From: Verrucomicrobiota bacterium
GTDB lineage: Bacteria > Verrucomicrobiota > Verrucomicrobiia > Limisphaerales > JADLHS01
Length of the DNA stretch: 64,000 bases
Assembly: GCA_029573725.1 (NCBI GenBank)
Contig: JAKQDQ010000042.1
Coordinates: forward strand, 250,777-314,776
Direction of reading: 5' to 3'
Made by a program: the position numbers and the translations under genes. Of this stretch, positions 20,801 through 24,381 are shown one piece after another. The notes beneath the pieces are model-generated. The model was not told where the DNA came from. It saw only the letters and a program-made list of their open reading frames with translations, and searched no databases. Each line of letters starts with the position of its first letter. The first letter of the stretch is position 1.

Positions 20801-21350
20801 GGTTCAGTTTGATCCGGCCACGGGGCAGGGGACGGTGGTGCGGACCTACTCCGGCCCGACGCCGGGGAATTTCCGTAACCTGGCCGTGAGCGCGGATCAG
20901 CGCTTTCTGGCGGGCCTGGCCACCGATGTTTCGGTGAATGTGCAATTGTATGACATCGCCGATCTGAATGCCGGACCCGTGCTGCGCGACCAGGAAGTTT
21001 TCGCCACGCGGAACGCCAACGTCACTCTGGGGGGAGTGGGAGCCACAACCTTCGGCGGCGATTATCTCTTTGCGCTCGATACGAACAATGGACTCAAGGC
21101 GTTTCACCTGGATCCCAATTATCAGCCCCCGCTGGGGGATTTTTCCATTGTCAGCATCGTCCGCCAGGGCGGCGCGGTGGTGTTCACCTGGACGAGCGTG
21201 CCCAATCGCACCTATCAGATCCAGTCGCGTGACTCGCTCACCGGAGGGTGGAGCAATCTGGGATCGCCCATCACTGCGACCGGCGCGACGACCTCCTTCA
21301 CGAACACCATCTCCGGCAGCACCCGCTTTTACCGGGTGTCCGGCCAGTAG
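17856..21350 (+). CDS. Large secreted protein with duplicated Ig-like + propeller-like modules
   Basis: 1164 aa from the ATG at 17856, which begins a signal peptide ([20 protein letters not shown]); the ORF track start 87 bp upstream lacks one. After an N-terminal domain of about 220 residues, a unit is repeated twice: an Ig-like domain ([20 protein letters not shown] / [20 protein letters not shown]) ending in NVGNYTLRL / DAGAYTLSV, then a roughly 300-residue propeller-like segment ([17 protein letters not shown] / [24 protein letters not shown] / TNTFWAK; NNGLKAF twice). The last 65 residues form a small C-terminal module ending RFYRVSGQ. Probably extracellular or surface-bound; the ligand is unknown. 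A pseudopilin gene follows 17 bp downstream. Confidence 0.88.
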
Positions 21351-21367
21351 GTGGACGCGTGATCCCA

Positions 21368-22225
21368 ATGAACTTCGCCGCCACCCTGATGCCCCCGCAC
21401 CGTCGCCGCGCCGGGTTCACGCTCATCGAGTTGCTGGTGGTCATTGCCATCATTGCCATTCTGGCCGCGATGCTGCTGCCCGCGTTGTCCCGGGCCAAGG
21501 CCAAGGCGCACGCCGCCAACTGCCTCAACAACGCCAAACAACTGCAACTGGCTGTCCACATGTATTCGGATGACAACCAGGACCAGCTCATCAACAATGA
21601 CACCGGCGGCCCTTCAGGCATTGCCGGCACGGCCGCCGGGCCCGACGCGTGGATTCAAGGCAACGTGCAGGAATGGTCGCCCGCTTATCTCAACACCATC
21701 CGCACCGGCGTGCTCTTTCCCTACAATCAGAGCACGGGCATTTATCGTTGTCCGGCCAGCCGGGCGTTTCTGCGGGGGCTGGGCGGGAAGATCGAGCCCC
21801 ACAACCGCAGTTACGCCATTTCCGTTCAGTTGAATTGCAACGCCGGCAAAAACAACGCCTCCACCCGCGTCGCCAGGAAGGTGACGGAAGTGCGGCGCCC
21901 GGCCAGCGTCTTTGATTTTGCCGAGGAAAACCAGATCAGCATTGATAACGGCGCGATCGGTGTGGAATCCCTGGCCGGACCGACCCAGTTTTGGAACCCG
22001 CCCACTGCCCGGCACAGCAACGGGGCAACCTTCTCCTTCCTGGATGGCCACGCGGAAATCTGGCGTTGGCGCGGCCCGACCCTGATCTCTCTGAACCGTC
22101 AGTACGGCGCCGACGATTCGCGCACCCAACGCACTTCTTCCACCGTCAATCCATTGAATCCCAGTCCCACCACCGCCAACGATCCGGACTTCATCAAACT
22201 GGCTGAAGCCCTGCCGGAGCCCTGA
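21368..22225 (+). CDS. Orphan pseudopilin-like protein (prepilin N-terminus, H-X9-DG C-terminus)
   Basis: 285 aa from the ATG at 21368; the track start lies inside the previous gene. A prepilin peptidase site and hydrophobic stem are plain: [20 protein letters not shown] near residue 15, cleaved after the Gly. The typical PVC tail motif H-X9-DG is present as [16 protein letters not shown]. No type II secretion or type IV pilus genes are nearby. The known family is expanded to many copies in Verrucomicrobiota, Planctomycetota and Lentisphaerota, with unclear function. It starts 17 bp after the Ig/propeller gene, so the two are probably cotranscribed. Confidence 0.9.
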
Positions 22226-22296: not shown

Positions 22297-23175
22297 TTAT
22301 TCACCCCGGGCGCCATCAGAGGTCGGCGCTTTCTCCAGCCGTCGGGCGAGGGCGCACAACCAGTGTTCCACGTCGTCAATCACCGTATCCGGAGTGGAGG
22401 TGCCGGCTGTAATGCCCACCCGGTCGGTCGGACGAAACCATTCCACGCACAAATTCGCCAGCGTCTGGACGTGGTGCACCCGGGCACAATACTGGCGGCA
22501 GGTGGTGACCAGCTCGCGGGTGTTGTTGCTGGCCGCGCCGCCGATGACCACCACTACGTCACTGTTCCGGGCCAGGGTCACCGCTGCGTGCTGACGCTGT
22601 TTTGTCGGCTGGCAGACCGTGTCCATGAAGCGCACCTCGGACCGGGGAAATTGCTGACGCAGGCGGGAAACCAGATGTCGCACGCGTGCGACGGGCTGCG
22701 TGGTTTGTGCCACCACACCAAAACGCGGACGCTCACGAAGCCGGGTCACATCGTCCTCGTTCAGCACAACGTCAAATTCTGCATAATCCTCCGTCAAACC
22801 GCGGACTTCGACATGACCGGGCTTGCCGATGACGACGGGGTGAAAGCCGGCGGCCACCAGGCCGGCCAGCGCACGATGCGCCAGATGCACCAGCGGGCAG
22901 GTCGCTTCGAGAACGCGGTGGCCGGCGGCGGAGGCGGCGGCCTTCGCCTGGTCCGAAGCGCCGTGGGCGGTGATCATCACAGTCGGCGTAACGGCATCCC
23001 CGGGGTGTTGGACCATGCGCACGCCGCGCGCCCGGAGGCGGGCGACCACGGTTTCGTTGTGGACCAGATCGCCGAGAATGGTCAGTGGTTGTTGCGCCGA
23101 TTGTTCAAGGGCAAGCGCAATGGCGTCGCGGACGCCAAAGCACATGCCGAGATGCTGGGCCCGGAAAATTTTCAT
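22297..23175 (-). CDS. ispH: 4-hydroxy-3-methylbut-2-enyl diphosphate reductase
   Basis: Last step of the MEP isoprenoid pathway, an iron-sulfur enzyme making IPP and DMAPP. The three cluster cysteines are visible: GMCFGVRDAI (Cys12), EATCPLVHLAH (near 96) and MDTVCQPTKQRQ (near 196). Other family motifs are AHGASDQAK, GKPGHVEVRGL, VVVIGGAASNNTRELV and GITAGTSTPDTVIDDV. Its 292 aa are full length. ispD lies about 30 kb away in the same window. A palindromic operator-like site lies 126 bp upstream of its start. Confidence 0.96.
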   Translation of the reverse strand: MKIFRAQHLGMCFGVRDAIALALEQSAQQPLTILGDLVHNETVVARLRARGVRMVQHPGDAVTPTVMITAHGASDQAKAAASAAGHRVLEATCPLVHLAHRALAGLVAAGFHPVVIGKPGHVEVRGLTEDYAEFDVVLNEDDVTRLRERPRFGVVAQTTQPVARVRHLVSRLRQQFPRSEVRFMDTVCQPTKQRQHAAVTLARNSDVVVVIGGAASNNTRELVTTCRQYCARVHHVQTLANLCVEWFRPTDRVGITAGTSTPDTVIDDVEHWLCALARRLEKAPTSDGARGE

Positions 23176-23300: not shown

Positions 23301-23323
23301 TTTACTTTGCATCACAAAGTAAA
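23301..23323. promoter_or_regulatory. Perfect palindrome TTTACTTTG-N5-CAAAGTAAA (operator candidate)
   Basis: Nine-base-pair perfect arms around the spacer CATCA, in the gap between the ispH start and the end of the HTH regulator gene. Its core ACTTTG-N5-CAAAGT is the same as the site overlapping the promoter of the membrane-protein/regulator operon, so it is likely a second binding site of that regulator. Confidence 0.65.
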
Positions 23324-23366
23324 AGACCGGGACGGGTGGTTTCTGTTCAAAGAAATGATTGTGGCC

Positions 23367-23675
23367 TCAGGCGTTTCGAGCCTGGTGAACGATCTTTTCC
23401 AGCAGCGTGATGTAATCCGCGAAGGCGGCGCGCCCGGCGGCCGTCAGCGTGCAGGTCGTGAGCGGCCGCTTGTTCTGATACAATTTGGCCACCACGACAT
23501 AGCCTGCTTCCTGCAACGTGCGGATGTGGGTGGTTACGTTCCCGTCGGTCATGCCCAGCGTGTCGCGCAATTCGGTGAAGGAGAGTTCAGGTGTGGCCGC
23601 CAGCAGGGACATGATGGCGAGCCGTCCCTTCTCGTGGATGACCCGGTCGAGTTGCCGGAAGGGTTCGGGGTTCAC
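23367..23675 (-). CDS. Small winged-helix transcriptional regulator
   Basis: 102 aa. The ORF track begins this frame inside the upstream gene; the real start is the GTG at 23675, which overlaps the TGA of the membrane-protein gene (GTGA). A winged helix-turn-helix is clear: KGRLAIMSLLAATPELSFTELRDTLGMTDGNVTTHIRTLQEAGYV with wing residues KLYQNKRPLTTCTLTAAGR. This matches the MarR/ArsR-like single-domain group (winged helix DNA-binding, HTH_34 type). It is translationally coupled to a six-TM protein, and a matching palindrome sits in the operon promoter, so autoregulation is likely. The signal sensed is unknown. Confidence 0.88.
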   Translation of the reverse strand: MNPEPFRQLDRVIHEKGRLAIMSLLAATPELSFTELRDTLGMTDGNVTTHIRTLQEAGYVVVAKLYQNKRPLTTCTLTAAGRAAFADYITLLEKIVHQARNA

Positions 23676-24346
23676 GGTGGCGTTTCCCGCTTTTCGGTAA
23701 AATACAGGCCAACCCCGTAGGCCAGTTGCAGAAAACCGAAGAAGAGTCCCATGAGCCAGTGACTGGTCGGCCAGCGGGCCTCCAGGTGAGCTTGGTGATG
23801 CGTCGCCGTGATCCAGAACAGCAGGACCGCCCCTCCGGCGATGAACACCCACGCCAGCCAACGCAAGCCGCGTGATGTAAAAAATCCGGCGGCATGCAGG
23901 GCGCAGCCGTAGAGCATGGCCCAGATTGCTGTCAAAACGATCAGCATACCCCGATCCTCCGTCATGCCGGGCGGCGGGTCTGCCGCCGGCGTTGCGGAGC
24001 AAATGACCAGAAACCAGAGTCCCACCAGCAACCCCGTCACCAGGCAAGGGAGCAGGGCCGTCGCCACCCGTCGGGCGGGCGGCGACCAAAATGCCTCCGC
24101 GCTGTTGAGGGCTTGTCGCCGGACCAGGAGGAGCGCCCCGGCCAGCCCTACCAGCGCCACCCCGAACCAGTAGCCGATGAATGCCCGTTCAGACTCAACG
24201 CGCAAAAACACGCCCAGTGCCGCGGCGATGACTCCGGTCGCGCCGGCAAAAGTCATCACTGGTGCCAGCGCCCGGCGGTAAAGCGCCGAGCGCTCCATGA
24301 GGGTGCGGATGACTTGCAGGTGCTCGACGGCCCAATGGTCACTCAT
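23672..24346 (-). CDS. Six-TM membrane protein coupled to the HTH regulator
   Basis: 224 aa from the ATG at 24346 (MSDHWAVEHLQVIRTLMERSALYRRALAP); the 344-aa track ORF includes 120 upstream residues with no protein character. It has about six TM segments (VMTFAGATGVIAAALGVFL, WFGVALVGLAGALLLV, LLPCLVTGLLVGLWFLVI, LIVLTAIWAMLYGCALHAAG, LAWVFIAGGAVLLFWI, LMGLFFGFLQLAYGVGLYF). I do not recognise a transport or enzymatic motif. It overlaps the regulator gene by 4 nt. Membrane-protein plus small winged-helix pairs of this type are common in Acidobacteriota and Verrucomicrobiota, usually without known function. Confidence 0.85.
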   Translation of the reverse strand: MSDHWAVEHLQVIRTLMERSALYRRALAPVMTFAGATGVIAAALGVFLRVESERAFIGYWFGVALVGLAGALLLVRRQALNSAEAFWSPPARRVATALLPCLVTGLLVGLWFLVICSATPAADPPPGMTEDRGMLIVLTAIWAMLYGCALHAAGFFTSRGLRWLAWVFIAGGAVLLFWITATHHQAHLEARWPTSHWLMGLFFGFLQLAYGVGLYFTEKRETPP

Positions 24347-24352
24347 GGCGGT

Positions 24353-24381
24353 AACTTTGTTCTGCAAAGTATCAACGTCAA
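24353..24381 (-). promoter_or_regulatory. Predicted promoter of the membrane-protein/HTH operon
   Basis: On the minus strand, TTGACG, 17 nt and AAAGTT end 6 nt before ATG 24346. The spacer and -10 box overlap the ACTTTG-N5-CAAAGT palindrome at 24354-24370, so a bound regulator would block RNA polymerase. Confidence 0.45.
24354..24370. promoter_or_regulatory. Palindrome ACTTTG-N5-CAAAGT in the operon promoter (operator candidate)
   Basis: Six-base-pair perfect arms around TTCTG, the same core and spacer length as the 9-bp-arm site at 23301-23323. It lies between the putative -35 box and the start codon of the membrane-protein gene. Confidence 0.65.

Follow-up and report, generated by a model that had tools for sequence, protein, structure and literature searches.

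The oxygen-labile Fe-S enzyme IspH is essential and catalyzes a limiting step of bacterial isoprenoid synthesis. In the window analyzed here, a stretch of 64,000 nucleotides from a bacterium of the Limisphaerales (Verrucomicrobiota), an ispH gene lies behind the genes of a membrane protein and a small regulator, and the palindrome ACTTTG-N5-CAAAGT occurs both in front of the membrane-protein gene and between the regulator gene and ispH. The locus raises the question of which protein would bind these two sites and whether ispH is among the genes that they control. A preliminary description of this DNA had proposed an autoregulated two-gene unit that may also touch ispH expression. Its gene calls hold, as does the 4-bp GTGA overlap of the membrane gene and the regulator gene at 23672-23675, and on the minus strand the genes follow one another in the order membrane protein, regulator, ispH (Table 1). 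A prepilin-like protein with a signal is encoded at 21248-22225 of the window, convergent to ispH.

Table 1. Features of the unit and of the neighboring ispH gene; positions are counted from the first letter of the window.
Feature	Position	Strand	Details
Short-form IspH, 292 aa, the genome's second IspH, proposed main target	22297..23175	-	TIGR00216 224.6 bits; three cluster cysteines aligned to 3dnf
Site 2, palindrome with 9-bp arms	23301..23323		44 bp downstream of the regulator stop codon and 126 bp upstream of ispH, close to where ispH transcription is predicted to start
Likely -35 box TTGAAC of the ispH promoter	23345..23350	-	sequence reading; in 71 loci TTTGAACA is conserved about -31 to -24 relative to site 2
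HTH_34 winged-helix regulator, 102 aa	23367..23675	-	GTG start; PF13601 91.3 bits; model pLDDT 93.9; 1ub9 TM 0.84
Membrane protein, six-helix, 224 aa, without a named family, candidate sensor/anti-repressor	23672..24346	-	ATG start; AlphaFold2, profile searches, alignment of 43 orthologues
Site 1, palindrome ACTTTG-N5-CAAAGT	24354..24370		exact match; 7 bp 5' of the membrane-protein ATG, within the operon core promoter
Likely -35 box TTGACG of the membrane protein-regulator operon	24376..24381	-	sequence reading; in 77 loci a conserved TTGAC lies some 12 bp upstream of site 1

In the Pfam profile search the regulator scored far above the HTH_34 cutoff of 27 bits, and its model is a clean winged helix. 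It shares both family and fold with its closest solved structure, PH1061 (1ub9); unlike that protein, which is annotated as hypothetical, it comes with a predicted operator, membrane partner and target. The ispH product exceeds the TIGR00216 cutoff (187.85 bits), and its three Fe-S cluster cysteines align with those of Aquifex IspH, in which it resembles the canonical short IspH (LytB) of Aquifex and E. coli. Unlike these, it is the second copy in a genome that also encodes a long-form IspH, and it has a conserved predicted operator of its own. The membrane protein was modeled by AlphaFold2 as six long helices (pLDDT 91.9), in agreement with the six transmembrane segments first proposed for it, and no Pfam or NCBIfam family matched it above cutoff, which leaves it uncharacterised, as it had been called. 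Attempts to identify its fold were uninformative: the best Foldseek hit had an E value of 0.41, and the best VIA-align hit (Z 9.1), a designed helical barrel, was within the range of unrelated helical bundles.

Both palindromes are present where they had been reported. Site 1 reads ACTTTGTTCTGCAAAGT and site 2, whose exact core occupies 23304-23320, has verified 9-bp arms (TTTACTTTG-CATCA-CAAAGTAAA). A scan of the window with up to two mismatches allowed returned only these two sites, both exact; the chance expectation for that two-mismatch search is 1.6, and exact matches are far rarer by chance. The whole-genome scan that had been suggested found two exact matches in 4.28 Mb, both flanking the two-gene operon, and none for the reversed control, which is in accordance with the claim that the shared core is unlikely to be accidental. 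With one mismatch allowed the genome yielded 10 sites and the reversed control 8; these sites are therefore uninterpretable, and only the exact pair stands out.

The comparison with relatives covered 57 genomes of the order and 80 named GTDB loci, which by record title belong to Limisphaerales, Pedosphaera or Verrucomicrobia subdivision 3, a sample which overlaps the first. Most of the genomes are draft metagenome assemblies, and the counts depend on contig ends. In the 57 genomes exact sites are rare (about two per genome), flank the regulator and recur as pairs about 1 kb apart. Among the named loci, site 1 lies at -21 to -26 from the membrane gene in 78 of 78, site 2 follows the regulator in 72 of the 76 with room for it, and ispH lies downstream of the unit in all 68 with room. 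The palindrome is thus conserved beside orthologous regulators, as the preliminary description had led us to expect. Two of the four loci lacking site 2 appear to be contigs of G001 and G004, whose ispH is elsewhere. In 484,506 flanking bases of the loci there were no exact and no one-mismatch palindromes, and 11 with two mismatches. The operator consensus is RCTTTGYANTRCAAAGY; the 5-nt spacer is itself constrained (YANTR), which the preliminary description had not noted. The arms are invariant and do not covary, which favors a protein-bound DNA site. Most families share the layout of site, membrane gene, overlap, regulator, site and ispH, and the regulator-membrane unit accompanies an extra IspH copy in dozens of bacterial families. 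The 126 bp that separate site 2 from ispH in the window exceed the distance found in many relatives.

The position of site 1 on the operon promoter is plausible. A TTGACG hexamer precedes it, a weak -10-like CAAAGT (24359-24354) sits inside the palindrome, and the conservation of TTGAC just upstream of site 1 would place the -10 region within the palindrome; however, the hexamer at 24381-24376 is not among the predictions of a consensus promoter scanner. When the loci are aligned on site 2, GGTC is conserved at -8 to -5, and together with TTTGAACA it would put site 2 near the transcription start point. Both placements suit repression, and as each site falls on a core promoter, the most likely effect of binding is repression at both.

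From the comparative and structural data we consider it probable that the HTH_34 protein acts as a repressor of its own operon and of the short ispH operon, and that the membrane protein made together with it relieves this repression upon a signal. The regulator, probably in dimeric form, would bind ACTTTGYANTRCAAAGT at two promoters. One is predicted to drive the membrane protein and regulator, the other to drive the short IspH and, in many relatives, an AurF-like protein and/or another membrane protein after it. The extra IspH would then raise or rescue the last isoprenoid step of the MEP pathway beside the unlinked long-form IspH. The proposed input through the membrane protein is suggested by the operon structure and by its conserved cytoplasmic face. 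In the alignment of 43 orthologues three segments are highly conserved: the N-terminal helix (IRTLMERSALYRR) and the loops that follow helix 2 (RRQAL..AE.FW.PP.RR) and helix 4. All three were assigned to the cytoplasm by a topology derived from the structural model and the Arg/Lys distribution. Two of the outer loops show low conservation and gaps (0.6 bits), while the third, which is short, reaches 1.6 bits. Most likely, the membrane protein acts on the regulator by way of this cytoplasmic face.

The sign of the regulation and the role of the membrane protein could also be read differently. The regulator might be an activator, the membrane protein might keep it off or on without regard to any signal, or it might itself be a regulated effector, such as a transporter or envelope protein, rather than a sensor. 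The membrane protein is indeed encoded first in the operon, and other membrane proteins (DUF4153, CreD) adjoin the module in other orders. We nevertheless regard these possibilities as rather unlikely, as the sites coincide in part with the predicted -10/+1 region, where repressors usually bind, and the conservation of the membrane protein lies on its assigned cytoplasmic side while the longer outer loops vary. Moreover, most loci preserve the 4-bp overlap, and the membrane and regulator genes remain together even where ispH is elsewhere.

Strong but indirect evidence points to the HTH_34 regulator as the protein that binds the palindrome. A different, more global regulator might bind it while the HTH_34 protein did something else, and four exact sites were in fact found in three of the 12 genomes that lack the HTH_34 gene. 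Only one of these four fits the spacer pattern, though, and its genome (G042) is 78% complete. Exact sites occur in 34 of the 45 regulator-positive genomes against the three of 12 regulator-negative ones, and the sites are rare and lie around the HTH_34 gene itself. This explanation is quite unlikely. G031, where the only match to the regulator is a 34% partial one, was counted as negative.

The second question is whether ispH is a target. TIGR00216 matched in all 57 genomes of the order, and in all of them except G034 a long-form IspH is encoded at an unlinked place, in open frames of about 390-530 aa; the single match in G034, an assembly 83% complete, is the short form. The long form of the source genome is encoded at G000:C57:101333-102373 (L161), and the short form is an optional second copy. 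The short IspH of about 290 aa occurs in 45 of the 57 genomes, and the regulator is present in exactly these 45 (Fisher p = 1.4e-12, uncorrected for phylogeny or linkage). This co-occurrence is partly due to linkage. That the ispH of this locus is a second, short form, found in the 57 genomes only together with the regulator, goes beyond the preliminary description.

In six genomes the short ispH and the regulator lie on separate contigs. In all six, ispH keeps the palindrome, which is exact in G022 and G047, has one mismatch in G001 and G055, and two in G002 and G004. Since G001, G002 and G004 are congeneric, the six cases represent about four independent events. The membrane-regulator operons of G022 and G047 have no site within two mismatches, while their ispH genes keep theirs, and ispH therefore appears to be the more constant target and autoregulation not to be universal. 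The proposal that the operon is autoregulated gains support from the comparative data, and the case for control of ispH is stronger than had been proposed; the unit very probably switches the extra IspH copy.

It is very improbable that site 2 acts on nothing but the operon of the regulator, through a DNA loop between sites about 1 kb apart or as an RNA hairpin or terminator, with ispH as a bystander: the distance from site 2 to the regulator stop is nearly fixed (mostly 34-53 bp) and that to ispH varies, as would suit this, but the unlinked ispH genes keep the site, two membrane-regulator operons lack site 1, a standalone AurF-like gene bears its own site, invariant arms without covariation and a location on promoters oppose an RNA stem, and the spacing between the sites varies without helical phase, which does not support looping.

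In Bacillus subtilis, the autorepressor of the SdpR/SdpI system is sequestered at the membrane by its polytopic partner (PMC1626106). The unit described here is similar in that a two-gene operon pairs a small regulator of the winged-helix type with a polytopic membrane protein and has a predicted site on its own promoter in all 78 loci. It is not a member of that system, although it would work like it, and membrane sequestration would be compatible with the conserved cytoplasmic segments. The regulator belongs to another winged-helix subfamily, scoring 16.2 bits against NF033789 (cutoff 100), no SdpI model was among the Pfam matches of the membrane protein up to E 1 and no NCBIfam model matched it, and unlike in SdpR/SdpI the proposed target includes a separate metabolic gene, ispH. 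In the open-access literature on HTH_34/PF13601, on ispH1/ispH2 and on IspH of Verrucomicrobia we found nothing on this system and no dedicated regulator of ispH; the available part of a survey of the MEP pathway (PMC10663253) does not mention a regulated second IspH. Many Verrucomicrobiae keep two forms of IspH, one apparently under dedicated control.

As for the signal that would release repression, oxygen or Fe-S damage, isoprenoid shortage and envelope stress are candidates. The first gains plausibility from the oxygen sensitivity of IspH clusters (PMC11218510) and from the resemblance of some other candidate targets to metal or Fe-S enzymes, the other two from the membrane partner and the CreD and DUF4153 neighbors. 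A more specific version, in which the membrane protein senses isoprenoid supply or a lipid carrier at the inner leaflet with its arginine-rich cytoplasmic face and controls IspH via the HTH_34 repressor, is unlikely; if true, it would be a feedback loop on the last MEP step, like eukaryotic sterol feedback and not related to it. A class-wide regulator with a 17-bp predicted operator and an uncharacterised membrane partner makes bacterial sensing of isoprenoid, Fe-S or envelope stress directly testable.

The site is also borne by other genes in some genomes, an aspect absent from the preliminary description. The AurF-like gene follows the short ispH in most genomes that have it, and where it stands alone (G030 and G040) it has its own exact site. 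The AurF-like proteins (about 250-265 aa; L118:7062-7856, L172:3840-4565, L293:2953-3708) belong to no family above cutoff, one homologue giving a weak PF11583 match below it. A membrane protein that bears a MAWxE motif but matches nothing in Pfam is common downstream of the short ispH (L317:2416-2895, L119:118-519, and L343, C33 of the source genome), and in L317 it is fused or nearly fused to the AurF-like frame. It was rejected as a general member of the regulon: standalone copies in G000, G029, G034, G047 and G055 have no convincing site, and only that of G046 has one. In G007 and G027 an exact site lies upstream of a BchE-like B12/radical-SAM gene (TIGR02026, 509 bits, cutoff 481). This gene heads a three-gene run in these two non-phototrophic genomes (L114:1958-3661, L167:2986-4716); phototrophy as the link is not supported, as neither genome has a reaction-centre protein (PF00124).

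The module persists in other orders of the class, with a regulator identity of about 46-56%, and is mostly followed by a short ispH. In G093 and G060 it precedes a DUF4153 membrane protein, and G093, G060 and G244 possess only the long IspH and lack the short form; the regulator is therefore not coupled to IspH in every genome. In G081 the short ispH, preceded by a one-mismatch site, is followed by CreD. The DUF4153 and CreD proteins beside the module (L296:5030-6715, L306:2203-3738, L305:2112-3602) hint at an envelope role. G263, of another order, encodes a divergent IspH-like protein whose gene is unlinked from the module and bears an exact site at -39. In another family of the class the palindrome likewise precedes genes of divergent IspH-like proteins that share about 26-31% identity with the short IspH (L303 from 4879; L375:2101-2925; L382:2486-3295).
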